From contig JAJZKE010000002.1 of the NCBI GenBank assembly GCA_021809645.1, positions 1 through 56,071 on the forward strand: a stretch of DNA of 56,071 nt, given 5' to 3'. This DNA comes from a bacterium. Lineage in GTDB: Bacteria; Patescibacteriota; Saccharimonadia; Saccharimonadales; UBA4665. Below, in pieces: positions 18,393 through 39,532 of the stretch; the stretch's first letter is position 1; every line of letters starts with the position of its first letter. The position numbers were made by a program, and so were the translations under genes. The notes beneath the pieces are model-generated. The model searched no databases. It saw only the letters and a list, made by a program, of their open reading frames with translations, and was not told where the DNA came from.

Positions 18393-19004
18393 CTACCTAA
18401 GTGAGACATACAACCAATTCTTTTTAATATATGATGCAACACTTTTACTAAGTCCGTTAGCTGCCTCACCTTTTTGCAATGAACGTCGTATTTCAGTTGA
18501 TAAAACAGCCGGCCAATAACTAATAATTACTTTCAGTGGTGGTTTAGGCCAAGACAATGTATTGATGGTAATATCGTTAATATCAGAACCTTGACGTAGC
18601 GCAATAATTATTTCAGACGAGTTTAATAGTTTTTCAGCACCAGGCCATTGGATAATATCTTTAACTTTATCTGAGCCAAAAAGAAAAACTAAATCTTGAT
18701 CTTTAAATATTTTTTCAAGTTTTGGTAATGTTCTTTTGACAGTTAAATATTTATCGTCTAGTTCTAAGATATCAAGTTTCTTGTGCGGCTTGATGGCTCT
18801 CTTGATCATTGCTACCCGATGGCCAAAAAGCTCATGAATATTGCGATTGTTTGGTAATCTTTCGGGTAGAAAATATACCTTCTTGAGGCCAGCTTCTTCA
18901 ATGGCTTGAAGGGCAAAGGTAATATGCCCTAAATGTATAGGATCGAATGCACCGCTATAAATACCGACTTTATTTTTTTTATTCATCAATTTTAGCTCTT
19001 CCAC
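18393..19004 (-). CDS. nadD: Nicotinate-nucleotide adenylyltransferase
   Basis: A nucleotidyltransferase-fold enzyme that adenylates nicotinate mononucleotide to deamido-NAD in NAD synthesis. GIYSGAFDPIHLGH near the N-terminus contains the HxGH ATP-binding signature. LVFLFGSDKVKDIIQW is the family's substrate loop, and the C-terminal STEIRRSLQKG is the ISSTxIR motif. GTG at 19004 is the longest start. ATG at 18986 (MNKKNKVG), about ten bases after GGAAGAG, is more likely and gives 197 residues. The motif set fits NadD best among the nucleotidyltransferases. Confidence 0.9.
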   Translation of the reverse strand: MEELKLMNKKNKVGIYSGAFDPIHLGHITFALQAIEEAGLKKVYFLPERLPNNRNIHELFGHRVAMIKRAIKPHKKLDILELDDKYLTVKRTLPKLEKIFKDQDLVFLFGSDKVKDIIQWPGAEKLLNSSEIIIALRQGSDINDITINTLSWPKPPLKVIISYWPAVLSTEIRRSLQKGEAANGLSKSVASYIKKNWLYVSLR

Positions 19005-19145: not shown

Positions 19146-20540
19146 TTAATATATCTTGGAGCATCCGCAAGAACCGATGATAACTTTTCTGTTTCTGCCC
19201 AAAGAAGATACCTTTGTTTTTACTTTTTTGGCATGACATATTGGACATTCATTAGAAATATATTCACAATCTTTAGGACTATTATCTTGATCCTCGCTTG
19301 ATTGCCATTTTTCAGCTCTTGAACTTATTCCACCAGGACAAGAATGTGATATAGCAGTTTTTTGGCCAATTAAGATTTCCTTTTGAGCTTGTTTAATATT
19401 ACCTTCGTCTAAATGCCATCTGGCCATTTCTATATGGAAAGCTGCTTCGTTACCAAAAACTCGAGGATTAATACTTTTATCAACGACAGAAAAGACAACC
19501 ATTTCTTTTTCTGACAATCGATGAAGTTCTTTTGCTGCGTCAGCAGGATTTTTGAAATCTATTGCATGATTAATTAATTCGCTAGAAATTCGATCAACTA
19601 TCGTATCAAAATGGGATAAACGATTTTGACAAGTTAATTTAAATAGCTGGTAATCTTGTTTTCCGGTTGATTCTCCAAAGAATGTATCGTCAGTAGCAGT
19701 AATTTGATCAGTGGCCTGATCGTACATTTTAACAATGTCTACCACACCATTGGGAATTAAACTATTGTGGATAATGATTGGTTGGGCTAAGACTTGAGTA
19801 GCTGAACCAGACAGATCAACTCCCAACTTTTGGCCGACTAACTCTATGGCCTGACTGTCATGTCGCAGGCCATCAAGTTCTTTAAGGCCTGACACAAAAG
19901 CTGATTCGGTTGTTATTTTTCTATTTTTAGCCGAAGTTAGCTGTATTGAACAGCTCATTGTATCAGTAAAAAATCCAGCGTTAGCCATTTCCTCTTTAGT
20001 CATATTGTCAGCCGCTTTAGAAAAGACCAAAAAACTATATTCTTCTAGATAACCGAGACTAACTAACTGTTGAAGTATCAAAGCATTTCTCACTTCAGCT
20101 TCAACTCGTTCTCTTATTGGATTATTTGGTTCTGTATTTTGTAAAGAATTGGCTTGAATTGTTTCCAAGTTCTGACCATGTTGGATGATTTTACCCTGAT
20201 CATCAACAATCATATCGACACTTACCACAAAGCCAGATTTAATAGTTCTTTCTACGATATCACAAGCAACATTAGTTTTAACCATATCGTATGCTTCAGG
20301 ATCACCTTTGGCCGCCGCTTTAGTTGCGTCTGTCAGATTTTGTAGTCGACTTTTTGTTATGGGTGATTCGACTGTATTTTTAACTAAAATTGAACCAAAA
20401 TATTGGATAATTTGATCAGCTCTTAAAAGCTCTTGTTGATAATCACTTAAGATATCTGCAGCTTTAAATACTAAACGTGGGTTAGCTAAGTATTCATCGT
20501 TTAAAAATGGTGGTTGATCTTTAATTAATGTTTCTGTCAT
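19146..20540 (-). CDS. Unknown 464-residue protein with C-terminal zinc ribbon
   Basis: A soluble protein of unrecognised family. The first about 400 residues are largely helical with mixed stretches such as FVVSVDMIVDDQGKIIQHGQ (about 124-143). Cys residues cluster near the C-terminus: a degenerate group near residue 400 (SHSCPGG...DCEY) and then ECPICHAKK followed about 20 residues later by GSCGCS, a likely four-Cys zinc ribbon. It is the only gene directly downstream of the cobalamin-type riboswitch at 20553-20690, so expression should respond to a corrinoid. It follows a LexA-type regulator gene on the same strand. A link to B12-dependent nucleotide reduction or B12 uptake is possible but not shown by the protein sequence. 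Confidence 0.8.
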   Translation of the reverse strand: MTETLIKDQPPFLNDEYLANPRLVFKAADILSDYQQELLRADQIIQYFGSILVKNTVESPITKSRLQNLTDATKAAAKGDPEAYDMVKTNVACDIVERTIKSGFVVSVDMIVDDQGKIIQHGQNLETIQANSLQNTEPNNPIRERVEAEVRNALILQQLVSLGYLEEYSFLVFSKAADNMTKEEMANAGFFTDTMSCSIQLTSAKNRKITTESAFVSGLKELDGLRHDSQAIELVGQKLGVDLSGSATQVLAQPIIIHNSLIPNGVVDIVKMYDQATDQITATDDTFFGESTGKQDYQLFKLTCQNRLSHFDTIVDRISSELINHAIDFKNPADAAKELHRLSEKEMVVFSVVDKSINPRVFGNEAAFHIEMARWHLDEGNIKQAQKEILIGQKTAISHSCPGGISSRAEKWQSSEDQDNSPKDCEYISNECPICHAKKVKTKVSSLGRNRKVIIGSCGCSKIY

Positions 20541-20552
20541 AAGCTCTTTTAG

Positions 20553-20690
20553 AGTCTTTCAAAAAGGGCTAATAACAGCTGCTTTTGCTCGAAAGACTTC
20601 TAGCTAGATCGGACTTAACGTTTTTTCAACGATTACCGTTGCGGCACAGCGTGGGAATCTCACCCAACTTCCAGCTTCTTTATTTATTAA
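20553..20690 (-). promoter_or_regulatory. Cobalamin-type riboswitch
   Basis: On the minus strand the leader of the 464-residue gene contains GGTGAGATTCCC (20653-20664), ACGCTGTGCC, and GCCGCAACGGTAA (20633-20645). These are the core junction sequences of the cobalamin aptamer (GGTGAxAxTCC...GCTGxxCCGCAACxGTAA). A B12-box-like AAGTCCGATCTAGC follows at 20603-20616. Downstream, AGTCTTTC (20591-20598) can pair with GAAAGACT (20553-20560), immediately before AAAAGAG and the ATG at 20540. That gives a possible expression platform acting on translation start. The exact fold and ligand form (adenosyl- or aquo-cobalamin) are not determined. Confidence 0.85.
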
Positions 20691-20748
20691 GGCTATTTAG
20701 TAGTTTATCACTAACAATAAACACTAGATATGGTATTTTTGACTATAA

Positions 20749-21207
20749 CTAGTTTTCTTGTTTTTGTTTAATGGCCGTCAGCCGTGGAATAAAGCTTTGA
20801 GCAGCACCGCTAAGATCTAATACTTTAAGCGCGCCGACTAAGACATAAAGATGATCAATGCTAGTTGTTTTTATTTCATCGCCCAATTTCTCTATTTCAG
20901 AAAAAGCATGCTCAACTTTTTCAACCAACCATTTCTCCTCGGCTGGAGAAATATAGTTTGTTAATATTTTAGATTCATCTTGGTTATTAACTAATTCAAG
21001 ACTTCTGGCTGAACGATCTCTTTTTATTAAGTGTCCTCTTTTCATTAAACTATTAACGTGTAAGGCGACCGTAGCAACTGAATTATAGTTAAGCCCAGTC
21101 ATTATTTCTCGATAACTGGGACTATAGCCATGCTCATTGATAAACTTTTCAATAAAACTTAAAAGTTCTTTTTGTTTTTTGGTTGGTCTGATTGTGTCGT
21201 TCGTCAT
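20749..21207 (-). CDS. LexA-type DNA-binding regulator lacking the peptidase domain
   Basis: A 152-residue protein whose first about 70 residues match the LexA winged helix (KKQKELLSFIEKFINEHGYSPSYREI, given in part, then VATVALHVNSLMKRGHL and RDRSARSLELV). The remainder is a helical region with no Ala-Gly cleavage site and no Ser-Lys peptidase residues, so RecA-triggered self-cleavage is not possible. It probably represses transcription by dimerising through the C-terminal helices. Target genes are unknown. The riboswitch-controlled gene immediately downstream and the gene itself are candidates. ATG 21207 lies in an AT-rich leader with no SD. Confidence 0.85.
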   Translation of the reverse strand: MTNDTIRPTKKQKELLSFIEKFINEHGYSPSYREIMTGLNYNSVATVALHVNSLMKRGHLIKRDRSARSLELVNNQDESKILTNYISPAEEKWLVEKVEHAFSEIEKLGDEIKTTSIDHLYVLVGALKVLDLSGAAQSFIPRLTAIKQKQEN

Positions 21208-21274: not shown

Positions 21275-22606
21275 CTAGATTATCCAGAAGCTCTTTTTTT
21301 CTGATGTCTTATATGATCTAGGTTGAACGGCTATAGCTATACCAGCCAACCCCCACCATAAGTAAGACAGAGTATCATCGGTCCATGATTCGAGCAACAT
21401 ATTACAAATAAATAGGCCGATAAAACTAGTTAGTAATGCCAGGCTTAAGGCGTCTCTTCGCCTAACCCATAAAGAAAAGGCTACTAATATATTAATGGCT
21501 AGAAAAACAAGCATACCCAACCAACCGGTTTCAAGACCTATTTGCAGATAATAATTCTCTGGAATTCTAGCTGGAAGGTCTTTGTTATAAACTGACGCTG
21601 GTCCAGCTGTACCGGGACCCTTTCCTAGAGGTTCGGTAGCTAATTGTTTGAAGGAGTCTTTTAGAGCTGTTAAATGGTTTTGATCAGAGGTTGTTGCAAC
21701 AGCGGAGTTATTCTGGGTATGAAATACTATGTTTTGAATCCTAGTATTATTCCTTTCAGCTATAAAACCACCGACTAGAACAACTGCAAGAACGACTGCT
21801 ATATATAGTAGCCTTTTCTTTATTACTTTAGATTTTAATCCCCAGTAAACAGATAGAGCTAAGGCAACCGCTAAACCTAGCCACGCACTTCGTGAGAAAC
21901 TAAAGAACATAACAATTGCTCCGCCAATCAAAAAGATAATATTTTGCCAAACTTTACGTTTTCGAATTAGTAAAACAGCCGCTAAGCTTAACGGAATTAA
22001 TAGGTAAGCACCTAGAGGATCAGAACCCCTTAAGGTTGACAGTATTCTAACGTAGTGTTTATTACTATTAATCGTTTGATAAGGCATGATGGTATGAGGG
22101 CCGTAACCGAAATGAGTTAAAAAGTTACGAGGTAAAACAAAAACTTCTAATAAGCCGAATAAGATGACAACAGTTGCCGGCCATAAGACTAATTTAATCG
22201 ATTTGTTTTTAAGGAGCGATACTTTTTTGGCAATAATTAAGGTTATTAAGAAGAATATTAGATAGCGAGTATCACTTAGCCAACCATAAAATAGAGCTTT
22301 AGTGCTAACATTGTGGTGATCTTTGGCAATTACTCCCCAAGCTAGCTCAATGACAAAAAACACAATAATTAACTGCACTAGTCTTGAGTAATAAAATATC
22401 TCCCTGATTTTTTTATCAGTAAAAAAGATATACAGAGTTAAGATAAAACAGATTGCTAGTAAATATTCTTTCCATAATCTAAGCAGTGTGTAGTGGCCGA
22501 TTAATGAATTACCCCAAACTGTTAAGAAAGCATGAAACGGTACAAGAGCTATAATTATTAGTATTAAGGTGGCTGATGTCTTAATTGCTAGCTCTTTGAT
22601 TTTCAT
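21275..22606 (-). CDS. O-antigen ligase/polymerase-like membrane protein (Wzy_C)
   Basis: A 443-residue integral membrane protein with about 11-12 helices and a larger extracytoplasmic loop (about residues 285-345) before the last helices. FSRSAWLGLAVALALSVYWG is the Wzy_C/WaaL signature region with its conserved Arg. Members either polymerise lipid-linked repeat units or ligate glycan to an acceptor on the outer face of the membrane. It stands at the left end of the glycan locus, divergent from the initiating transferase gene. A CPR cell without LPS would use it for a surface glycan or protein glycosylation, which is inference. Confidence 0.88.
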   Translation of the reverse strand: MKIKELAIKTSATLILIIIALVPFHAFLTVWGNSLIGHYTLLRLWKEYLLAICFILTLYIFFTDKKIREIFYYSRLVQLIIVFFVIELAWGVIAKDHHNVSTKALFYGWLSDTRYLIFFLITLIIAKKVSLLKNKSIKLVLWPATVVILFGLLEVFVLPRNFLTHFGYGPHTIMPYQTINSNKHYVRILSTLRGSDPLGAYLLIPLSLAAVLLIRKRKVWQNIIFLIGGAIVMFFSFSRSAWLGLAVALALSVYWGLKSKVIKKRLLYIAVVLAVVLVGGFIAERNNTRIQNIVFHTQNNSAVATTSDQNHLTALKDSFKQLATEPLGKGPGTAGPASVYNKDLPARIPENYYLQIGLETGWLGMLVFLAINILVAFSLWVRRRDALSLALLTSFIGLFICNMLLESWTDDTLSYLWWGLAGIAIAVQPRSYKTSEKKSFWII

Positions 22607-22678
22607 CTAGTCTTTGTCCTCTTTATCGACTATTATACAGCTTTGGCTATCCGCGTTATACTTAATCATATCTAAATA

Positions 22679-24118
22679 ATGAAAAATAACACTTCTATTA
22701 TATACAGTATCTGCTTAATTATAGGTGACGCCATTGCCTTAATTGGCGGACTTAGTATCGCCTATATCTTGCGTGTTTCTATATCCCACCAAATCTTAAG
22801 TGCTCAAGTTCCGGCTATTACCTACCTTAAATTTTTACTCATCCTAATTCCTTTTTGGTTGTTTACTTTTGCTATTTTAGGTCTTTATACCGAAAGATAT
22901 TATCAAAATAGATTTAGTGAGTTAGGTAGATTAACAATTGGAGCTTTTATTGGCATTATGTTCGTTGTCAGCTATAGCTACATGATTAATGAGCCTATTT
23001 TCCCGGCTCGTTTAGTAGTTGTTTATGGTTTTATTTTTGCTCTTGCAGCTGTCTTAATATTTAGAACTCTGGCTCGCGCCATTAAAAGAGAGCTATTTAG
23101 CTATGGTATTGGCCTTAATAATGTTTTAATTGTCGGTGATACTAAAAGCACTAAGGATTTAATAAACTCTCTGCCAACTGATATTACAGGCTATAAGTTT
23201 ATTGGTCTTGTAGGTGGTAAAAAATATCCATTAGCAAAAGATCTGAAGATAAAAAGATATGCCACCTTCAAGGAAGCAATTAGTTCAATTCATCATAAAC
23301 AGATTCATACTATTATCCAAACTGAGCTTTATCCAAGTTTTAAAGATAATGATGAGATTTTAAATTATGCTCAAAGCCATCATATATCTTACCGTTTTGT
23401 GCCTGGTAATAGCGAACTGTTTGTCGGTAATATTCAAGTTGATCTTCTGCAGTCAATGCCGATTATTGCCGTTCATCAGACTGCCCTAGTTGGCTGGGGA
23501 CGAGTTGTTAAAAGATTAACAGATATTATTTTAAGCACAATTTTAATAATAATCAGTTCACCTCTTTGGCTGATAATTATGATTGCTCAGAAAATATCAA
23601 GTCCTAGAGGACAAATATTTTATCGGGTTAATCGATATTCTAGGTACGGTCAAGTTGTTAAAATATATAAGTTTAGAACTATGAAACAAGCCTATACTAA
23701 TATGAGTCCAGAAGAGGGATTTAAGAAAATGGGTCGACCAGATTTAATAAAGGAATATCGTTCTCATGGTGATAAGTTAACTTACGATCCAAGAATAAGT
23801 CACTGGGGATATTTTCTAAGAAAATCTAGTTTAGATGAGATACCTCAATTATTTAATGTTTTTAAAGGTGATATTAGTTTGGTTGGACCACGAGCATTAG
23901 ATACTTTTGAGCTAGAACAGTACTCTAAGAAAAACCTAATTTTAGCTGTTAAGTCAGGCCTTACGGGGCTAGCTCAAATATCAGGCAGAAGAGATATTCC
24001 TTTTGAAGAACGAAGACGAATTGATCTATATTATGTTCAGAATTGGAGCTTTTGGGGAGATATCGTTATCATCCTTAAGACTATTTGGGTAGTCTTATTT
24101 CATCGAGGAGCAGCATGA
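22679..24118 (+). CDS. Initiating phosphoglycosyltransferase (WbaP/WcaJ type)
   Basis: A 479-residue polyprenyl-phosphate sugar-1-phosphate transferase that starts glycan assembly on undecaprenyl phosphate at the inner face of the membrane. Four N-terminal helices are followed by a Rossmann-like domain (about residues 135-260), then the re-entrant helix and catalytic domain from about 275: KFRTM, RKSSLDEIPQLFNV (with the catalytic Asp-Glu pair) and GDISLVGPRALD. The full-length long form is intact. TATACT at 22657-22662 is a likely -10 box. The stop overlaps the start of the next gene (ATGA). Confidence 0.93.
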   Translation: MKNNTSIIYSICLIIGDAIALIGGLSIAYILRVSISHQILSAQVPAITYLKFLLILIPFWLFTFAILGLYTERYYQNRFSELGRLTIGAFIGIMFVVSYSYMINEPIFPARLVVVYGFIFALAAVLIFRTLARAIKRELFSYGIGLNNVLIVGDTKSTKDLINSLPTDITGYKFIGLVGGKKYPLAKDLKIKRYATFKEAISSIHHKQIHTIIQTELYPSFKDNDEILNYAQSHHISYRFVPGNSELFVGNIQVDLLQSMPIIAVHQTALVGWGRVVKRLTDIILSTILIIISSPLWLIIMIAQKISSPRGQIFYRVNRYSRYGQVVKIYKFRTMKQAYTNMSPEEGFKKMGRPDLIKEYRSHGDKLTYDPRISHWGYFLRKSSLDEIPQLFNVFKGDISLVGPRALDTFELEQYSKKNLILAVKSGLTGLAQISGRRDIPFEERRRIDLYYVQNWSFWGDIVIILKTIWVVLFHRGAA

Positions 24119-25218
24119 AAGTTGCTATTGTATGTGATTGGTTAACGGGTATCGGAGGAGCTGAAAGAGTCGTTTTCAATATTCATCAACTTTATCCCAA
24201 AGCTCCAATTTACACCTCTCAGTATGATGAGAGCTCTTTGCCTTGGTTTAAAGATGCCGATATCAGAACTACCTGGCTTCAAAAACTACCTTCAGGTCTA
24301 AAGAAATTCCTACCGTTGTTTAGAGCATATACTTTCGGAAAATTAGATTTAAGTGCTTATGATTTAGTATTTTCTATTAGCGGAGCTGAGGCCAAAGGAG
24401 TAAAAACTGGACCGAAAACTATCCACATTTGTTATTGTCATTCACCTACACAATATTATTGGATTAGAAGAAATGAGTATCTAAAATATCCTGGTTTTCC
24501 ATTTGGCCTTAATTGGCTCGCACGCCTCGGTCTTAGACTATTGGAGACCCCTCTTAAGCGATGGGATAAACATGCTGCCAAACAGCCAGATTATTACATA
24601 ACAAACTCTAACTATTCCAAAAATAATATTAATAAAATTTATAAAAGAGAAGCGATCGTTATTCATCCGCCGGTTGACGTTGATCGATTTAGACTTAGGT
24701 CAAATAAGCCTACGAGACATGGATTAGTTATTGCAGGGAGACAAACGCCATATAAAAGAATTGATCTAGCAATTGAAGCTTGCAATAAATTAAAAATACC
24801 GTTAATTGTTATTGGTAACGGTCCAGACCATAAAAGGTTAGAAAAAATAGCTGATCGAACAATAACTTTTTTAACTAATGTTAACGACCTATCGATCGTT
24901 GAACATTTCCAGTCTTCTCTCGCCTTTATTTTTCCAAATGCCGATGATTTTGGTATTGTAGCCGTTGAAGCATTAGCAGCAGGAACACCAGTTATAGCCT
25001 ATAAAAAAGGTGGTGCTTTAGATTATATAAAAAATGGTAAAAATGGTGTTTTTTTTGAAAGACAAACTACAGCTAGTTTAATTAATGCTATTAATATTAT
25101 CCTAAGTAAAAATTTCAATTACGAAAATATATCTAAATCAGCTAATCAATTTTCTACCAACAGGTTCAAGAATGAAATAAGAGAATTTGTTGATCAGATT
25201 ATATCAAAGAACAAATAA
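24115..25218 (+). CDS. GT4 family glycosyltransferase
   Basis: A 367-residue GT-B glycosyltransferase that retains anomeric configuration. The N-terminal GIGGAERVVFNIHQLYP acceptor loop and the C-terminal DFGIVAVEALAAGTPVIAYK block with the E-x7-E pair are diagnostic of family GT4 (mannosyl-, glucosyl- or galactosyltransferases). It probably adds the second sugar of the lipid-linked glycan. The ATG at 24115 overlaps the previous stop and follows GAGGAG by four bases, which decides the start over the in-frame ATG at 24085. Its 3' end overlaps the truncated HAD gene by 15 bases. Confidence 0.92.
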   Translation: MKVAIVCDWLTGIGGAERVVFNIHQLYPKAPIYTSQYDESSLPWFKDADIRTTWLQKLPSGLKKFLPLFRAYTFGKLDLSAYDLVFSISGAEAKGVKTGPKTIHICYCHSPTQYYWIRRNEYLKYPGFPFGLNWLARLGLRLLETPLKRWDKHAAKQPDYYITNSNYSKNNINKIYKREAIVIHPPVDVDRFRLRSNKPTRHGLVIAGRQTPYKRIDLAIEACNKLKIPLIVIGNGPDHKRLEKIADRTITFLTNVNDLSIVEHFQSSLAFIFPNADDFGIVAVEALAAGTPVIAYKKGGALDYIKNGKNGVFFERQTTASLINAINIILSKNFNYENISKSANQFSTNRFKNEIREFVDQIISKNK

Positions 25219-30267: not shown

Positions 30268-30714
30268 ATGGAAAGGATTAAGAATCTAGTTTCTAAAAGT
30301 TTTTCAAAATTTTTGATAATTGGCTCTTTTAATACCCTCGTAGATATAATACTATACTCAATCCTGACTGATTTGGTAGGTTTAAATATTATCTATTCGA
30401 ATATTATATCTACTTCCCTAACATTAATAATGAGTTTTTATTTGAATCATTATTTTGTATTCAATTCTGAAAAGAAAAAATTATCTACAGCTTGGAAATT
30501 TGTTATTATCACTCTGTTTAATGTCTGGGGAATACAATCACTAATAATATATATATCAAACCATGAATTATTAAAAGCAAACTTGTTAATCAATCATAGA
30601 TGGACAATTAATCTATTAGCCAAGTTATGCGGTGTTACAGTATCATTTATGTTAAACTACCTCGGATATAAATATGTATTTCGTTTGTCTAAAGAAAAGC
30701 TCTTTATAGGATGA
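30268..30714 (+). CDS. GtrA family membrane protein
   Basis: A 148-residue protein with four membrane helices and the GtrA pattern (FLIIGSFNTLVDIILYSILT near the N-terminus, FYLNHYFVF after helix 2, NYLGYKYVF at the end). GtrA proteins are thought to flip lipid-linked sugars or partner with GT2 transferases that make polyprenyl-phosphate sugars. This fits the next gene, a GT2 protein whose ATG overlaps this stop (ATGA). The two almost certainly work together. Confidence 0.9.
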   Translation: MERIKNLVSKSFSKFLIIGSFNTLVDIILYSILTDLVGLNIIYSNIISTSLTLIMSFYLNHYFVFNSEKKKLSTAWKFVIITLFNVWGIQSLIIYISNHELLKANLLINHRWTINLLAKLCGVTVSFMLNYLGYKYVFRLSKEKLFIG

Positions 30715-33251
30715 TCAAAAATAAAAAAATCACACTCTGTATACCCTGCCGAGACGAGGCAGCTCATTTAAGAAAAATTATTAATAAAGTTCCTGACTAC
30801 GTTGATGAGATATTAATAATAAGTAATCGATCTGCCGATAATACTTATGAAATAGCCAAGTCTATAGAGGGGAGAGTAAGGGCTCTTAAGGATGATCGAG
30901 TAAGTAAGGGTGTCGGTTATGGATATGCTCATATGAAGGGCATAAAAGAAGCTTCTGGGGACATTATCGTTGGCTTAGATGGTGATGGAACATATCCTCT
31001 AAATGATATAAAAAAGATTGTTAATTTTCTAATTGATAATGACAAAGATTTTATATCTTGTAATCGTTATCCTTTAAAAGATAAAACAAGGATATCCTTG
31101 AAATTAAGATTGGGTGTTAAATTACTTAATTTTGAAACTAAGATGTTATACGGCATTAACATTAAGGACATATTGTCTGGAATGTGGGTATTTAGAAAAA
31201 GAATTAAATCTAAACTGGAACTTTCTGAGGGTGATTGGAATCTAAGTCCTCAAATAAAAATTAATGCAGTAACAAATGATGATATAAATTTTTCAGAATT
31301 CCGTATAAAACAATATGAAAGAATGGGTAAAACTAAACAGAAATATTTAAGAACTGGCTGGCAACATACATATTTTCTATTAAAAAATAGGTTTTCTATA
31401 AAAACTGCTGGAAGTAAAAAAGATCTGATGATTATTTTCTTGGTCTTAGCACTATTGGTAGGGTCTTATTTTATACCTATTTTGGGGGTAATAGGCTTTT
31501 TAATCGTTAGCTATTTTGGTTTGTTGGGAGTTGGTATATTCTCTGTTATTGAGAGTTTCTTTCTTGGTTTTATATTATTTTGGATATCTAACATAGTTAT
31601 TTATTCATTTAGTACATTAGCTGGTTTTGATTTCAATGTGCATAATGCACCTCTTGTAGATCTAATTGTCGTTATCTTAATATTTCTAATTAACCATAAA
31701 CGTATCAAAAAGAGATCTTATAAGTATGAAAAGAATGGAGACATCACGGCTGTTATATCTTTTATAGTTACTTTTGTTGTGATGCTAATTCCTGTTTACA
31801 GTATGGCCGGTTCACAAGTAGCTCAATTTTTATCTTATGGTGAAGATAATGCCTCTCACTATGCATTGACTAATTACATTTATAAACACGGGGCATATGC
31901 TTATGGACAGAACCCTAAAAATGATGGCTTGTTGCTAAGTTTAGAAACCTATCCCGAGGGATTCCATGTAAATGCTGCCGTATTTTTGGGATTAGTTAAA
32001 CCACATAAGATTACTACTGGAGGTCAGGTTAAAGTTTACTACATATTTATAGCTTTGGATTATTCTTTGTTTATATTTATCTTTGTTAAAATTTGTATTG
32101 GTTTTATAAAACGAAAAAATAAACTAATTTCTATTGCTGCTGTACCTTCTCTAATTCTTTTGTGTTCATTAAGTCTTTATTTACTGCTTCTGTGGCGAGG
32201 TTTTCAACCTCAAATTTTTGGTTACTTATTTCTTTTAGCATCAATATACGTGCTTAATATGATCAAAAAAAATGTGAATAAAGATCAGATCATTTGGTTA
32301 CTCATTTTATCACTTACTTTATCAGTAGGGGTCGCTTCTAGCTGGTGGCTGCTTATGCCAGTATTAGCAATTTTATTGGTAATTTGGGGAATTATGTATT
32401 TGGGATTAGGTGATACGCTAAAAGCCATAAAGAAACATATCTTGTGGGTGTTAACTGTTGTCTTTGCAGGATCTTACCCAATACTAATTAATCTTCTTTT
32501 CTCTACAAAAGTAAATCCATTAGACGAGCCAGGTGGAATAAATATATTAAGTTGGTCTATCTTTTACTATCTATTACCTGTTATCTTGATAGCTCTTCCT
32601 TTAACTATCAAAAGTATTAAAAGTTATGGAATACTATATATGTCATTTGCTTTGACTTCTATCCTAACAATAGGGATTGGAATATATCAGATAAGTACAG
32701 TCGGTCACCTGGAGTATTACTTTTATAAATGTGTTTATTCTGTACTATTGTTCTATCTTGCAATATTTTTTGTATCTGGCTTCGAGGTAGCTCAATACTT
32801 ATATAAAAAACTTGGTAAGATACGGGTTTCAATGCCATTCGCAATACTTGCAGCTTGCATAGCAATATCAATTTCAACCAATCTAGTCTACGCCCAAGTA
32901 TATGTACATAACTGGTATCCAAATGTTGTTGGAGTAAATGACTTTAATATATTATTTTCTAAAAAAATATCTGGTTATCAGGATGTTTATTACATAGGGT
33001 CTTGTAATAATGGCAGAGATTACTTAGACAACAGGTGGAGTGGAGCTAGGCTATTATCAGAGAATGAACTTCATACTAAAGTTGAGATGTCTTACATATA
33101 CAACAATTACAGAGGAGTGAGTATAGGTTTACAGAGGTCACTATTAACTAAAAGGATTTTATTAGTAACTTATCCTGGTTGTTTAAATAAAATTCCAAAT
33201 ATAAATAAGATATTAAGCTCCCCTAATGCCACAATATATAAAAGCAACTAA
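30711..33251 (+). CDS. GT2 (DPM-like) glycosyltransferase fused to a large membrane domain
   Basis: An 846-residue protein. Residues 1-230 form a GT-A/GT2 domain of dolichol-phosphate-mannose-synthase type (ITLCIPCRDEAAHLRKII, DGDGTYPL as the DxD-bearing loop, GMWVFRKRI). Two helix pairs follow (about 238-320), then a polytopic region of about ten helices with an extracytoplasmic loop near residue 375 (SYGEDNASHYALTNYIYKHG) and a C-terminal globular outside domain of about 110 residues. The second half resembles GT-C type transferases in topology. One polypeptide may thus make a polyprenyl-phosphate sugar inside and use it outside, which is inference. Confidence 0.82.
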   Translation: MIKNKKITLCIPCRDEAAHLRKIINKVPDYVDEILIISNRSADNTYEIAKSIEGRVRALKDDRVSKGVGYGYAHMKGIKEASGDIIVGLDGDGTYPLNDIKKIVNFLIDNDKDFISCNRYPLKDKTRISLKLRLGVKLLNFETKMLYGINIKDILSGMWVFRKRIKSKLELSEGDWNLSPQIKINAVTNDDINFSEFRIKQYERMGKTKQKYLRTGWQHTYFLLKNRFSIKTAGSKKDLMIIFLVLALLVGSYFIPILGVIGFLIVSYFGLLGVGIFSVIESFFLGFILFWISNIVIYSFSTLAGFDFNVHNAPLVDLIVVILIFLINHKRIKKRSYKYEKNGDITAVISFIVTFVVMLIPVYSMAGSQVAQFLSYGEDNASHYALTNYIYKHGAYAYGQNPKNDGLLLSLETYPEGFHVNAAVFLGLVKPHKITTGGQVKVYYIFIALDYSLFIFIFVKICIGFIKRKNKLISIAAVPSLILLCSLSLYLLLLWRGFQPQIFGYLFLLASIYVLNMIKKNVNKDQIIWLLILSLTLSVGVASSWWLLMPVLAILLVIWGIMYLGLGDTLKAIKKHILWVLTVVFAGSYPILINLLFSTKVNPLDEPGGINILSWSIFYYLLPVILIALPLTIKSIKSYGILYMSFALTSILTIGIGIYQISTVGHLEYYFYKCVYSVLLFYLAIFFVSGFEVAQYLYKKLGKIRVSMPFAILAACIAISISTNLVYAQVYVHNWYPNVVGVNDFNILFSKKISGYQDVYYIGSCNNGRDYLDNRWSGARLLSENELHTKVEMSYIYNNYRGVSIGLQRSLLTKRILLVTYPGCLNKIPNINKILSSPNATIYKSN

Positions 33252-33261
33252 GTAATGTTTA

Positions 33262-34956
33262 TTAGTCAGAGCAAGTAAATAAACTACCTACTGTTGATGG
33301 CAAATCTGATGGCAGAATTGAATATGCATTACTAAGGCTGTAATGTAGTCTGTTTGAAAAACAGTCCCAGGGTCCTAGAGGTTGAATAAACACATTGTTA
33401 TTTGAATCATAATTAACCACATATAAATTTCCAGAGGATAATAATATTTGACCCTGTTTCAATCCAACGGTCGTACCATCTGGAAGAGATATATCTGCTG
33501 AAGTAGCAGGTACTACGTTTGACCACTGATAACCATTTGTGTTAAAAGCGTTAGGACCTAATATCCAATGTTTGGTAGTCTGCCCTATTCTATATACTTT
33601 ACCATTACTGTTATCAACCACTAAAGTTCCGGCTGGGTGTTGATTAGAGAAATCTACTGTTGGTGCAGTAGTGGCTGGTACAAAATTAGGTGGTACGTAA
33701 AGAACACTACTCCAGTTATATCCTAAACTTTGATACGAACTATAAGACAGTTGTTGTTTTTCTAATGTTCCGTTAATGTAAGTCATTATATAAACTGGGG
33801 TATTGTTAGAATAGAATACCGTACCTGGAGCCAAATTACCGATGTTGGCTCCAGTGGACAAGTTAGTGTCTCCGATTGTCCCCTGCAAAACATTACTCCA
33901 CTGGTATCCATAGCTAGCAAAAACAGAGGGATTAGTAATCCAGTCAAGTTGACCGTTTTGAACTAGGTAAGTCTTACCTCCAAAAGTTACTAAAGATCCG
34001 TTAGGATGAGCGGTAAAGGTATTATTAGAGAAAACGCTACCAAATCCTAGGTCACCACTAGATATCGTTCCTTCGAATAAGTAATCAAAATTTTGATTGC
34101 CGCTTATAAAAGGGGTGTAATAATAAAGGCTAGCCGTAGAGCCATTATCTATAGTAACGGTTGTGCCATCTGAGGTTGTATAGGTACCGTCATAATAAAC
34201 CGAAGAACCACCTGCTACCCTTTGTCTATATCCTTGGGTCATAGGTCCATTATAGGTATAATTTTGGTCGCCACTATCGAAGCCGGGATAGCCAGAAAGT
34301 ATTCCATAAGCCCTTTCTTGACCGAACCGCAACAACCAAGCACCAAGTTCTAATTGAAGTGAGAATCCTTCATCTTGGGCATTACAATAACCAGGACATC
34401 CGTAACTCATTGCAATATTCATACAACCTCCACTATAAACACAAGCATATGTGCAAGTCGTTGAAACACCGCCTATAGTACAAGTAAATGTATTATTAGC
34501 ACTTGGAGTACTAGAGAAAGGTGCTGACGGATTGGGAGTAGAATAATAGCAACCTGCATTACCAGAAACAATGCTTTGTTCTTTTTGAATGGTAGTTAAT
34601 ATAACTTCTGGATTAATATCATATTCATTAGATACATTAGCTATTGCCTGACCTACAGATACATTACTTCCAAAATTATATTGGTTTTGGGTCGAAGACC
34701 ATCCTTCCGGATTAGGTGTCGAAAATCCCGGATTACCATTAGAATTTGAGTTCGGACTTATACAACTATTTGGAAAATTACTATTTAACCATGAGTTGAT
34801 TGATGATGCTGACATCGAAGACGTATTATTAAACGTTATATCATCGATTAAATTATTAGGGTTAAAAGGTAATGATGAAGCATGCACCGGAACCCAAAGA
34901 AATATTGGTGATATTAATATTGCTAAAGCTGATATAGCCGTTATTATTCTCTTCAT
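33262..34956 (-). CDS. Secreted cell-wall-associated protein with lytic-transglycosylase-like domain and repeats
   Basis: A 564-residue exported protein with a Sec signal peptide (residues 1-26, cleavage after VHAS likely). The first domain contains NPEVILTTIQKEQS (about residues 116-129), the Glu-containing helix of goose-type/SLT lysozyme folds, followed by a Cys-rich stretch (CTIGGVSTTCTYACVYSGGC and SYGCPGYCNAQ) that likely forms disulfides. From about residue 310 onward three similar modules recur, each with a Y-x-V segment followed by an aromatic GYQWSNV-type motif, probably wall- or glycan-binding. It is likely a muralytic or glycan-binding surface protein. It shares a 4-bp overlap with the upstream 199-residue gene. 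Confidence 0.75.
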   Translation of the reverse strand: MKRIITAISALAILISPIFLWVPVHASSLPFNPNNLIDDITFNNTSSMSASSINSWLNSNFPNSCISPNSNSNGNPGFSTPNPEGWSSTQNQYNFGSNVSVGQAIANVSNEYDINPEVILTTIQKEQSIVSGNAGCYYSTPNPSAPFSSTPSANNTFTCTIGGVSTTCTYACVYSGGCMNIAMSYGCPGYCNAQDEGFSLQLELGAWLLRFGQERAYGILSGYPGFDSGDQNYTYNGPMTQGYRQRVAGGSSVYYDGTYTTSDGTTVTIDNGSTASLYYYTPFISGNQNFDYLFEGTISSGDLGFGSVFSNNTFTAHPNGSLVTFGGKTYLVQNGQLDWITNPSVFASYGYQWSNVLQGTIGDTNLSTGANIGNLAPGTVFYSNNTPVYIMTYINGTLEKQQLSYSSYQSLGYNWSSVLYVPPNFVPATTAPTVDFSNQHPAGTLVVDNSNGKVYRIGQTTKHWILGPNAFNTNGYQWSNVVPATSADISLPDGTTVGLKQGQILLSSGNLYVVNYDSNNNVFIQPLGPWDCFSNRLHYSLSNAYSILPSDLPSTVGSLFTCSD

Positions 34957-35552
34957 TCTTGTATGTCTAATTTTATAGGATCTGTGGTAGTTTTAGTACT
35001 ACCATTAAGGCTAGCTACAGCTGTAATTTGCCATTTACCAACAGTAAATCCTGCACTGTTAATATTCCACTCCCATAGTGTTGATCCATTATTACCAGTA
35101 TTTTGCAGTGGTAAACTTTTTACTTGACCGTTTGGTCCGATAAACTTTATATAACATGATGCTCCCGGTGTGGTGTTGCAAGTTGACTCTTCAGTAGCTG
35201 GATATGGTTTACCGCTTAAATCGGGATAGTGGTTACTAACAAATGTACCACTTGGTGATACTAATGGCATATTGCTTTTTGTACTTGTACTATTTGAGGT
35301 TGAATTGGTATATGAGTTTAATTGATTAGTGGTCGTGGATTTTGATGAATTATTATTAGCTTTTGCAGTAGATCCATTCGGAGATGAATTATTGTTTGAT
35401 GTTTTTTGTGACATTACAGGTATTGTTTTTGAGCTTATTTTAGCTTGATTATCATTATGTACTTTTAATATAGCTCCGACAATAACCAGAGCAACTATTA
35501 TCACTCCTACGGTTATATATATATACTTATTTTTATAAAGTCGTTTCTTCAT
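34953..35552 (-). CDS. Membrane-anchored extracytoplasmic protein, 199 residues
   Basis: One N-terminal membrane helix (about residues 10-28) is followed by a low-complexity Ser/Asn/Thr linker (about 45-95) and a small outside domain of about 100 residues with two Cys (ESTCNTTPGASCYIKF), probably an Ig-like beta fold. No family recognised. Its stop overlaps the start of the secreted 564-residue gene by four bases, so the two are translationally coupled and likely act together at the cell surface. Confidence 0.72.
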   Translation of the reverse strand: MKKRLYKNKYIYITVGVIIVALVIVGAILKVHNDNQAKISSKTIPVMSQKTSNNNSSPNGSTAKANNNSSKSTTTNQLNSYTNSTSNSTSTKSNMPLVSPSGTFVSNHYPDLSGKPYPATEESTCNTTPGASCYIKFIGPNGQVKSLPLQNTGNNGSTLWEWNINSAGFTVGKWQITAVASLNGSTKTTTDPIKLDIQE

Positions 35553-35652
35553 TGCTCTTAGTAAATAGCTGACATATTCTAAATGTTTTTATTACGCTAT
35601 TCTATGATATATTTTACATCTTTTATGTAATGCAATCTATGCTGTTTTTTGC

Positions 35653-35658
35653 TACAAT
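35653..35658 (+). promoter_or_regulatory. -10 box, leaderless type
   Basis: TACAAT ends eight bases before the GTG start at 35667, and no Shine-Dalgarno is present. Confidence 0.5.
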
Positions 35659-35666
35659 AAGCAATT

Positions 35667-37016
35667 GTGAAGGCCGGAAAAACTAAAAAAAGAATACTTA
35701 TCATATCACACGATAAAATAGGCACGAGTATGGCGGGCCCTGGTATTCGTTATCACTATATGGCTCAAGTTCTTTCTGATGATTTTGATGTAACTGTAGG
35801 ATTTTTTGATCCTAATTATTTACCAGATCAAAAACTAACCAGAGACTACTCTATTGAGCATATTGATGCCCATAATTTTCATGGGGGTTTCGAGAATTTT
35901 GATATCATAATAGCTTTATGGTTAAGCCCAAGAATGATTTCATTCTGCAATTCAAAAGGCATATTTATTGTATTTGATTTATATGCTCCTGTTCCAATTG
36001 AAAACCTCGCAGGTAATATATTTGGAAAGAAGAGGCTAAAACCTTCTGATGATTTTGAATTTTCTAGATCTCTCGTTATGTATCGTCTTTTTTTTGAAAA
36101 TGGAGATTTGTTCCTGTGCTCAAACCGTCGACAACTCGACTTTTGGCTTGGATATGTCTTTGGCTCTGATCAAATAAGACCTACTGATTATTTAACTAGG
36201 CCAATGTTTGATCGATTTATATTTGCACCCATGGGTATTGATGCTAAAAGCAAGTTGGAACATAAAAAAAATGTAATCAAAGGTGTTATTCCTGGAATTA
36301 AGAAGACCGATAAAATCATCCTTTGGACCGGGGGTATATGGGAGCATTTCGATGCTCAAGTTCTTATAAGGGCAATGTCGAAATTGTCAAAAAGAAAAGA
36401 AATCAAGTTATTGTTTTTTGGAACAAGACACCCTAATCCAACCGTGCCAGACATGCGTGAATCAATTGAAACAAGAAAACTTGCAGAAGAAATGGGTCTT
36501 TTGGGTAAAAACGTTTTTTTTCAAGATGGATGGGTTGACTATGTAGACAGAATTGATTATTTACTTGAAGCAGACATTGCAATTAGTACTCATAAACCGT
36601 CTATTGAAGCGGAATTCTCTCATCGCACAAGAATACTTGATCATTTACTAGCTGAGTTGCCTACTATTGCAACTAGTGGGGACTATTTTTCCGATGATGT
36701 AATTAAGAGATACGGACTTGGTGTAGTAGTGCCGCCAAATGATGAACTGGTAATTGAAAAATCTATTTTAGAAATTTTTGATGAAAATAATTACAATAAA
36801 GTAAGATCTAATATCAAAAAGGTTAGAAAAGATTTTGATTGGGAAGTATCTTTGAGGCCGTTAAAAGATTTTCTTTTATCTAACCCTGATAAATTAACTA
36901 GGACAAAAAGATCACATAACCTTAGAGATGATAAAGGAATAGTGCTTGTTGCAAAACGAATTTTGCCACCCACTGCTAAGAAAATAATAGTTAAGGCATT
37001 AAGATTATCCAATTAA
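35667..37016 (+). CDS. GT4-like glycosyltransferase
   Basis: A 449-residue GT-B glycosyltransferase. The N-terminal half begins RILIISHDKIGTSMAGPGIRY, the acceptor-binding strand-loop with the Gly-rich turn, and has a central NDP-sugar site with GGIWEHFDAQVLI. The C-terminal catalytic region is more diverged than typical GT4: HKPSIEAEFSHRTRILDHLLAELPTI takes the place of the EALAxGxPV block. The start is a GTG with no Shine-Dalgarno behind a -10 box. It begins a run of two transferase genes and ends two bases before the next ATG. Confidence 0.82.
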   Translation: MKAGKTKKRILIISHDKIGTSMAGPGIRYHYMAQVLSDDFDVTVGFFDPNYLPDQKLTRDYSIEHIDAHNFHGGFENFDIIIALWLSPRMISFCNSKGIFIVFDLYAPVPIENLAGNIFGKKRLKPSDDFEFSRSLVMYRLFFENGDLFLCSNRRQLDFWLGYVFGSDQIRPTDYLTRPMFDRFIFAPMGIDAKSKLEHKKNVIKGVIPGIKKTDKIILWTGGIWEHFDAQVLIRAMSKLSKRKEIKLLFFGTRHPNPTVPDMRESIETRKLAEEMGLLGKNVFFQDGWVDYVDRIDYLLEADIAISTHKPSIEAEFSHRTRILDHLLAELPTIATSGDYFSDDVIKRYGLGVVVPPNDELVIEKSILEIFDENNYNKVRSNIKKVRKDFDWEVSLRPLKDFLLSNPDKLTRTKRSHNLRDDKGIVLVAKRILPPTAKKIIVKALRLSN

Positions 37017-37018
37017 TC

Positions 37019-39532
37019 ATGTCTAGCAATAAAAACCCCCTAGTATCTATAGTAATAGTAAACTGGAATGGTTTAGAAGATACGAAATTATGTCTAAAAC
37101 ATACTAGTAAACAAACTTATAAAAATATCGAGATCATTGTAGTTGATAATGGTTCTGATGATGGTTCCAAGCAATATTTAAGTGATCTTAAAGATATTAT
37201 TTACGTTAATAATGAAAAGAATCTTGGTTTTACCGGAGGTCATATAGCAGGATATAGATCAAGTAGTGGTGAGTATATTCTTTTGTTAAATAATGATGCT
37301 GTTATGGATTATGACTATATTAATAAGTCAGTAAAATTAATGATGAAAGATGTTCAGATTGGTGCTATTGGTGGAAAGTCGTATTTTTGGAATGATAAGT
37401 ACCGTTTGCTGGACACTAATAATCCTTTTTATACATTTCAGAATATCAATGCAATAACAGCAGAGGCAATTTTTGAAAATAAAGAAAGAGGAATTTTAAG
37501 AGAAGTTAATAACCTATCCGGATCATGTGTTATGGTCAGAAGGTCTGTGATTGAAGAAATTGGTTATTTACACAACCCGTTTTTTACTTATTATGAAGAG
37601 TCTGATCTCTTTGCGCGCATGAAGAGAGGTGGATATAAAGTTATATACTCTCCAGATCTAGCAATATGGCATCTTAATGGAAAGAGCTCACAAAAAAAAG
37701 GTTCGTCTTTCACTTTTTATATGTTGATGAAAAACAGGTATCGTTTTGCGGTCAGGAACTTTGATAACTGGTCGCTGAGACGATTTTTAAAGTTTTATTT
37801 TATCAACGGTTTAATATGTAGTTTCAAATGCTTATTACCTTTAAATAATAATGGTATTAATAAAGCTTACGCTAAAGCTTTTTGGGTAAACTTTTTATTT
37901 GGTTGGAGGGCATATATAGAAAGAGTTGGTCTTAAAAAAAAATTCGGAAAATCTAATTACAACGAGCTTATAGCCAGGGAGCAAAAAGTTGTTAGTTTAA
38001 TTTCAGTATGTAATAGTTTAAACGATTTTAATAATCTAAAAAAAATAACCAAAGACATGAAATCATGGGATGATATAGTCGCAGTTGTTAGTCCTTCTTT
38101 AGCCGAAAAAATAGATAATCGATTATCAGTAAACTCTAATCCTATTAGGCTGTGTATAAATAGAGGGCTTATTGACTGCTCTGCTGAAAATCTAGGTATT
38201 GCTTCCTCTAACGGTAACTGGCTAGTGCTCGGTGGTGGAATATCTAATAATTTTATCTGGGATAATTTAAATAAAGCACTCTATAAGGCTGATAAAGAAA
38301 GAAAGAAGTTGATTTATTTTCTATCACCAAATAATAGTAAATGTTCACCTTTTATATTAATTGACAGTCTGGTATGTAAGGAGGTTGGAGGAATAAAGCC
38401 AAAAGAACATATAAACATATTTATATGTTCTACCATCAAGGCTTTTAATATTAAAGATTCCTTGGCTATTTTAGAAAAACAAAATAAAAACAATTTTATT
38501 ACTATAAAAGGAAGTGATAAAAGAATACTTGAGATTAGGTCTTATATTTATAAGAATGGAAGAAAATATACCTTTATTGACAGGTTGATGGGTCATCATC
38601 GTCGTTTACAACAATTGCATGTTTTTATAAATTGGTTGTCATCTCCAGATATTACAACATACTTAAAAGCTGCGCGTATTAAAAATCTAATTTTTTCCCT
38701 AGTAACTTTAAATAGAAAATCTTTTGCTCAAGAACTACATCATATTAGAAATGAAGATCTTTGCGCTAGACGATTTTTTATAGATCTAAAAGAAATGAAG
38801 CTTGAAGAAAAGAAAAGATTAGATTTTCTAATAAAAAACCCTAAAGAAACAACAATATACATTATAAATAGAGATAGAATATCAACCTTAAAGCAGCTTT
38901 TGAGATGGTTTGAAAAACAGGGTTTATATAAAATTGTATTGATTGATAACGACTCAAAGTATCCACCTCTAATAAAATACCTAAATTCTACTGATTATCA
39001 AGTTATCGAGACAATGAATAATGTTGGTCATACCGTACCATGGAATTCTCAAATCATAAGGCTTCTAAGTCCTAATGACTTTTATGTAGTTACAGATCCA
39101 GATGTTGTACCTGTACTTGATTCCATTGATGTCATCAGTAAACTTTATGAGGTTCACAGTAAATTTCCTAATCACTTAAAAGTTGGACTGGGACTAAATA
39201 TAGATGATTTGCCTGACGAATATATTCTAAAAAAAGAAGTTATTGAATGGGAAAGTCAATTCTGGAAAAGAATATTAGATAAAGGTGTTTATGAAGCAAG
39301 TGTTGATACCACCTTCGCTTTATATAAACCTTATACTTACAACTATTTCTTGTCGCCTAGCTTGCGTACTGGGCATCCTTACACAGCCAGACATCTACCT
39401 TGGTATATTACAAGCTCTAAGCCAACAATTGAGGATGTTTTCTATCAATCAAGGTTGGACAAAAACGTTAATACTTGGAATGGCGATTCTTTACCAGAAA
39501 GATATATCAAAGAACTATCAAAGAAAAAATAA
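37019..39532 (+). CDS. Double GT2 glycosyltransferase
   Basis: An 837-residue protein with two GT-A domains. Residues 1-300 are a rhamnosyltransferase-like GT2 module (VSIVIVNWNGLEDTKLCL, VDNGSDDGS, LLLNNDAVMD, FTYYEESDLFARMKRGGY). The middle (about 320-600) contains a diverged module (ISVCNSLNDFNNLKKITKDM) that may be a third, inactive GT2-like fold. The C-terminal 235 residues carry IYIINRDRISTLKQLLRWFE, LIDNDSKYP and VVTDPDVVP, a second GT2-type site. Such fusions add two sugars in sequence. The acceptor is unknown. Confidence 0.82.
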   Translation: MSSNKNPLVSIVIVNWNGLEDTKLCLKHTSKQTYKNIEIIVVDNGSDDGSKQYLSDLKDIIYVNNEKNLGFTGGHIAGYRSSSGEYILLLNNDAVMDYDYINKSVKLMMKDVQIGAIGGKSYFWNDKYRLLDTNNPFYTFQNINAITAEAIFENKERGILREVNNLSGSCVMVRRSVIEEIGYLHNPFFTYYEESDLFARMKRGGYKVIYSPDLAIWHLNGKSSQKKGSSFTFYMLMKNRYRFAVRNFDNWSLRRFLKFYFINGLICSFKCLLPLNNNGINKAYAKAFWVNFLFGWRAYIERVGLKKKFGKSNYNELIAREQKVVSLISVCNSLNDFNNLKKITKDMKSWDDIVAVVSPSLAEKIDNRLSVNSNPIRLCINRGLIDCSAENLGIASSNGNWLVLGGGISNNFIWDNLNKALYKADKERKKLIYFLSPNNSKCSPFILIDSLVCKEVGGIKPKEHINIFICSTIKAFNIKDSLAILEKQNKNNFITIKGSDKRILEIRSYIYKNGRKYTFIDRLMGHHRRLQQLHVFINWLSSPDITTYLKAARIKNLIFSLVTLNRKSFAQELHHIRNEDLCARRFFIDLKEMKLEEKKRLDFLIKNPKETTIYIINRDRISTLKQLLRWFEKQGLYKIVLIDNDSKYPPLIKYLNSTDYQVIETMNNVGHTVPWNSQIIRLLSPNDFYVVTDPDVVPVLDSIDVISKLYEVHSKFPNHLKVGLGLNIDDLPDEYILKKEVIEWESQFWKRILDKGVYEASVDTTFALYKPYTYNYFLSPSLRTGHPYTARHLPWYITSSKPTIEDVFYQSRLDKNVNTWNGDSLPERYIKELSKKK

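Follow-up and report, generated by a model that had tools for sequence, protein, structure and literature searches.

A predicted adenosylcobalamin-class riboswitch precedes an orphan zinc-ribbon protein family in Saccharibacteria

Introduction

The known cobalamin regulons comprise genes for biosynthesis, for the transport of B12 and cobalt, and for isozymes (PMC3766115). In cobalamin riboswitches, kissing of loop L5 with loop L13 is the established sensing step of the class (PMC9600662). One domain that is of importance for the systems compared here is DUF4430, which transcobalamins carry in their C-terminal region (PMC4350170). A literature search, in which subscription journals were thinly covered, retrieved no earlier report of a cobalamin riboswitch in Saccharibacteria or the candidate phyla radiation (CPR), and nothing on cobalamin together with ribonucleotide reductase (RNR) in Saccharibacteria or Patescibacteria.

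Here, we describe a minus-strand leader in a DNA stretch of 56,071 nucleotides (contig JAJZKE010000002.1, assembly GCA_021809645.1, order Saccharimonadales), which is referred to as the window. An initial annotation, made from the letters only, had proposed a cobalamin-type riboswitch between a LexA-like gene (20749-21207) and the gene of an unrecognised 464-residue protein (19146-20540), and this placement holds. We consider it very probable that the element is a cis-acting AdoCbl-class riboswitch that serves the 464-aa gene as an OFF switch, and that the protein family is a core member of the lineage's corrinoid regulon. The features are listed in Table 1.

Table 1. Features of the riboswitch locus (window coordinates)
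Feature	Position	Strand	Basis
nadD-like gene, commonly next in order, possibly in the same transcript	18393..19004	-	NCBIfam TIGR00482, 106.9 bits
464-aa orphan protein with C-terminal zinc ribbon (Cys432, 435, 458, 460)	19146..20540	-	family comparison, AlphaFold
Predicted OFF hairpin CTGTTAT...ATGACAG, burying the start codon	20534..20578	-	folding energy
Predicted ON anti-sequestor, AGTCTTTC (20598-20591) pairing with GAAAGACT (20560-20553)	20553..20598	-	folding energy
AdoCbl (B12) riboswitch aptamer with 3' hairpin	20571..20693	-	RF01482 match
P13 hairpin CTTT-CGAGCA-AAAG, L13 complementary to L5	20582..20595	-	97% paired in relatives
P3 closing helix, GCTG (20675-20672) with TAGC (20606-20603), enclosing the core junction	20603..20675	-	covariation
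P5/L5 TGTGCCGCA, followed by P6 strand CGG	20636..20648	-	invariant core; P5 and P6 pair swaps
P4 hairpin TGGG / CCCA, loop TGAGATT	20652..20666	-	98% paired in relatives
Extended -10 promoter-like element TGATAAACT	20702..20710	-	TGnTAn[AC]nT motif, recurrent in relatives

Results

The leader matches the AdoCbl riboswitch family

The junction motifs on which the initial annotation was based are all present on the minus strand and in the order given there: GGTGAGATTCCC (20664-20653), ACGCTGTGCC (20652-20643), GCCGCAACGGTAA (20644-20632) and AAGTCCGATCTAGC (20616-20603). The search with the Rfam cobalamin models that had been suggested as a check resulted in a significant match to the AdoCbl family RF01482 (46.1 bits, E 1.4e-7), which spans model positions 1-149 of 149 and was the sole significant family in the focused leader scan, with a score below the gathering score of 50 bits. 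Hits of the same scan to RsaD and to miRNA families were dismissed as chance. Run in gathering mode over the whole window, Rfam reported two tRNAs only and no cobalamin family. In the complete 733-kb genome, RF01482 matched a single time (E 7.5e-8), and RF00174 was matched as well (22.9 bits, E 2.5e-4). As RF01482 falls short of the curated cut-off by 4 bits, the case rests on the comparison with relatives.

Among 149 related genomes, 104 contain an RF01482 match (E <= 0.1), mostly in single copy; the curated cut-off is exceeded in four of them, and most relatives score below it, as the window does. A covariance model built from the related aptamers, termed R1, gave 78.0 bits (E 5.4e-17) for the window aptamer, which is itself part of the training set. 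R1 also matched 110 genomes in a phylum-wide sample of 380, which would place a B12-sensing RNA of RF01482-like type in more than a quarter of them.

Altogether, 107 distinct related aptamers were gathered, all with the GTGCCGCNACNG core. For 27 pairs in 61 aligned aptamers, 95.4% of cells were paired, compared to 76% in shuffled and 26-44% in slid alignments. Compensatory double changes amounted to 347 (111 in shuffles, 52-86 when slid), and the covariation score was 0.530 against 0.173. P3 is complete with all four pairs in 83 of 95 related aptamers, and compensatory changes in it are numerous; P4 carries such changes at four of five pairs, and in P13 each of the four pairs has changes on both sides. 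A P5 pair swaps from U-A to A-U, a P6 pair is G-C in 32 and U-A in 29 of the 61 aptamers, a long-range pair between columns 29 and 78 switches between A-U and G-C, and pair 42-80 covaries. The L5 sequence TGCCG is the kissing partner of L13, and the UGC/GCA complementarity is present in 99.5% of cells; as these pairs are nearly invariant, they carry no covariation support.

The covariance match, the covariation in relatives and the genes found behind the same aptamer elsewhere bear out the cobalamin class proposed initially. At the level of sequence, this comparison establishes the aptamer and its covariation, together with the family association and the regulon context described below.

Predicted expression platform and switch mechanism

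The promoter-like motif TGnTAn[AC]nT precedes 54 of 103 related aptamers and occurs in 2.8% of shuffles. A consensus scan upstream of the window aptamer revealed no convincing -35/-10 pair. The neighbouring 152-aa protein (20749-21207, minus strand) matches LexA in the DNA-binding domain but not in the peptidase part. Among 53 aptamers, 18 are preceded by a LexA-like motif.

Terminators were searched with a strict scan, after an earlier lax version, which shuffled leaders passed half the time, had been dropped. In 61 of 100 leaders (4.2% of shuffles), the start codon is preceded by an intrinsic terminator. Its 5' arm can form at least six contiguous pairs with L13 and the P13 3' arm in 38% of cases, compared to 8% when shuffled, and the same-genus leader L003 has a terminator complementary to the L13/P13 3' arm.

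In the window leader, the strict scan found no terminator. Here, a 45-nt hairpin over the start codon has a folding energy of -14.1 kcal/mol (shuffled mean -5.1, sd 2.3), and two of 1000 shuffles were as stable. The anti-sequestor pairing excludes both P13 and this hairpin, and the two leader folds are nearly balanced with -17.3 kcal/mol for the anti-sequestor and -17.8 kcal/mol for the OFF state. Mutually exclusive folds are predicted in both settings, with terminators in the relatives and with the start-codon hairpin against the anti-sequestor in the window. The 8-bp hairpin noted initially just before the start is real, and is better read as the pairing of AGTCTTTC with GAAAGACT, one of the two alternative folds.

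Because the alternative structure buries the start codon, control of the window gene is probably translational, off in the presence and on in the absence of B12; this platform is predicted from the folding energies of a single sequence. With AdoCbl bound, L5 would kiss L13 and P13 would form. The RNA downstream would then adopt the hairpin that buries the AUG or, in the majority of relatives, an intrinsic terminator. In the absence of AdoCbl, GAAAGACT would be engaged by the P13 5' arm; the hairpin would open, allowing synthesis of the protein. We infer the identity of the ligand, the window switch and the regulatory sign, the latter from regulon logic and from the shape of the platform. One study reports an activating corrinoid riboswitch (PMC10653944), which counts against the OFF sign.

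A chance motif or a degenerate relic, functionless in the window genome, would agree with the sub-threshold RF01482 score and with the loss of the terminator in the window. We regard this as highly improbable: P3-P6 and P13 are intact, the alternative folds are nearly balanced, and the aptamer is conserved with a terminator in a genome of the same genus (G001). That the aptamer senses methyl- or hydroxocobalamin instead, or several corrinoids, is unlikely, too. Cobalamin riboswitches often respond to a broad range of corrinoids (PMC9600662); against this, RF01482, the AdoCbl family, gives the best match, and the genome encodes both the AdoCbl-producing BtuR and the AdoCbl-using NrdJ.

Genes behind the aptamer

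The family that contains the 464-aa protein is located in the operon downstream of 94 of the 107 distinct aptamers, either as the first gene or, behind DUF4430-DUF6580, as the third. The family evolves fast, and its distant members could be linked only via iterated profiles. A nadD motif comes next in 55 of the 94 family loci, some of which are partial. The remaining aptamers mostly precede recognised B12-regulon genes, namely DUF4430 with DUF6580 or, in one genome (G028), NrdA-NrdB, the class I B12-independent reductase. Elsewhere in the phylum, the aptamer is positioned before operons that combine DUF4430 with DUF6580 and a secreted protein. DUF4430 was detected in 13 of the 149 related genomes, and the only PDB matches of the DUF4430 protein, all weak, are transcobalamin-1 and -2.

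Three gene orders tie the orphan protein to B12: NrdJ-BtuR-aptamer-orphan (L204), aptamer-DUF4430-DUF6580-orphan-nadD (L205) and aptamer-DUF4430-DUF6580-orphan (L206). The assignment of the unrecognised protein to the corrinoid regulon, put forward in the initial annotation, is well supported as far as genomic sequence can tell, and the scan for homologs with the same leader showed that the aptamer-family pair recurs across most relatives. The family does not recognisably fit any of the known classes of cobalamin regulon genes.

DUF4430-DUF6580 and the orphan fill the same slot between aptamer and nadD in different genomes, and the window genome has neither DUF4430 nor DUF6580. A direct role in B12 uptake, with the orphan protein standing in where these two are absent, is nevertheless rather improbable. 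All three genes occur together in the operons L205, L206, L113 and L122, which argues against a simple substitute, and no signal peptide or membrane helix is visible in the 464-aa sequence.

Two further arrangements were observed. Genome G002 has two aptamers (C1:149781 and L207), one before DUF4430-DUF6580 and the other before the orphan and nadD. In other lineages of the phylum (L142, L144, L149, L159, L167, L169), a different orphan protein is encoded behind the aptamer and a Clp-like double AAA+ ATPase behind that (tested with Pfam in L142 and L149), possibly another B12-controlled system; this orphan ends in AA in five of the six loci and in QA in L167.

The 464-aa orphan protein

Members of the family were found in 120 of the 149 relatives, nearly always in one copy, and outside the order a sample of 380 genomes gave few, weak and partial matches. 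A contig search with the single window sequence retrieved no homologs, and a profile of the closer subset led to named Saccharibacteria. These named relatives are Candidatus Saccharibacteria MAGs, in line with the CPR-like genome suggested initially.

The zinc ribbon proposed for the protein is confirmed by four C-terminal cysteines. C432, C458 and C460 are conserved in 99-100% and C435 in 93% of the members with a residue at the position, and Glu97, Cys401, Cys432 and Cys460 are invariant where aligned. Such a four-cysteine ribbon is generic and carries no functional information. The AlphaFold model has a pLDDT of 86.7 and a pTM of 0.79 with a beta-rich C-terminus, and a second family member was modelled with a pLDDT of 88.9; with a threshold of E <= 0.001, no PDB fold was matched by either model. 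The 464-aa protein has no Pfam or NCBIfam match. PHROGs, PADLOC, PDB sequences and PDB or BFVD folds yielded nothing convincing, with scattered and weak hits of single members, and a tblastn comparison of a short family member with phages gave no match.

Two specific identities were rejected. An RNR is not supported by Pfam or NCBIfam, and no RNR is among the PDB fold matches listed. A PduO- or CobA/BtuR-type adenosyltransferase is not supported by Pfam, and PF02572 hits another gene of the genome (G000:C20). Inspection of the sequence by eye revealed no signal peptide or membrane segment, which speaks against the transport function considered in the initial annotation. The salvage or nucleotide-reduction accessory role named beside it would fit the NrdJ-BtuR adjacency in L204.

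With regard to the C-termini, 18 of 83 complete family members end in AA (often LAA or VAA), compared to one of 76 neighbouring control ORFs. These ends resemble an ssrA-type degradation signal; the window protein ends in KIY.

B12 economy of the genome and the lineage

The window genome encodes the B12-dependent reductase NrdJ and the adenosyltransferase BtuR, and NrdB, DUF4430 and DUF6580 were not detected in it. Among 60 relatives, the NrdJ model TIGR02504 matches 58, a few weaker matches being class I NrdA, as in G028. NrdB is present in only three of the 60, all with weaker NrdJ-model hits, and the candidate L085 was rejected as NrdJ, as it is a class I NrdA accompanied by NrdB. BtuR was found in 57 of the 60 and the PduO-type adenosyltransferase (PF01923) in none. 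The visible B12 economy of the lineage would consist of BtuR feeding NrdJ.

A bypass is the main rival for the function of the orphan protein, which would then replace or circumvent a B12-dependent step, by a B12-independent dNTP route or as a replication brake when NrdJ starves. Genes for isozymes of B12-dependent enzymes form one of the standard classes in cobalamin regulons (PMC3766115), NrdA-NrdB follows the same aptamer in one relative, and NrdJ, the only such enzyme looked for, is the only B12-dependent enzyme identified in the genome. Neither protein model matches an RNR fold, and the family co-occurs with NrdJ instead of replacing it, which makes a bypass a doubtful explanation.

Two observations concern the genomic background. 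In family f35 of the order (e.g. G122, G142, G266), 18 genomes among those listed have neither aptamer nor orphan, and G320 and G451 of the same family carry both, so that gain and loss go together. The window further contains polysaccharide genes at 21275-25218 and 30711-39532, encoding an O-antigen ligase-like Wzy_C protein, an EPS glycosylphosphotransferase and several glycosyltransferases.

Discussion

We infer the biochemical role of the 464-aa protein, with corrinoid handling or support of NrdJ as a first guess ahead of the bypass. The protein might handle or conserve scarce corrinoid, or support NrdJ, during B12 shortage, a proposal that we make tentatively. It is likewise conceivable, with odds short of even, that the family has a new fold and a new activity, which would serve corrinoid metabolism or the maintenance of class II RNR, be induced by B12 shortage and be confined largely to Saccharibacteria.

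The riboswitch provides a regulatory handle on a widespread orphan family of host-dependent CPR bacteria, the function of which can now be approached via B12 limitation. The recurrent pair of switch and gene marks the orphan protein as a likely core component in coping with B12 shortage in these bacteria, and predicts that Saccharibacteria monitor B12 and thereby protect B12-dependent DNA-precursor synthesis.

In comparison with known systems, the window aptamer resembles RF01482, a family of clan CL00101, in the P3-P6 core, the L5-L13 kissing partners, the 3' hairpin and the coverage of all 149 model positions. It differs in a score under the gathering cut-off and in a very regular L13 (CGAGCA). 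The B12-riboswitch-controlled NrdA-NrdB pair lies behind the same aptamer in G028; in contrast, NrdB was not found in the window genome, and the window gene resembles no RNR in sequence or fold. DUF4430, which is similar to the C-terminal domain of transcobalamins, and the membrane protein DUF6580 share the aptamer and, in some relatives, the operon of the orphan. Both are extracytoplasmic or membrane genes of the uptake type, whereas the window gene is unrelated to either in sequence. The main target of the aptamer in this lineage is an orphan protein and not a recognised uptake, synthesis or isozyme gene.
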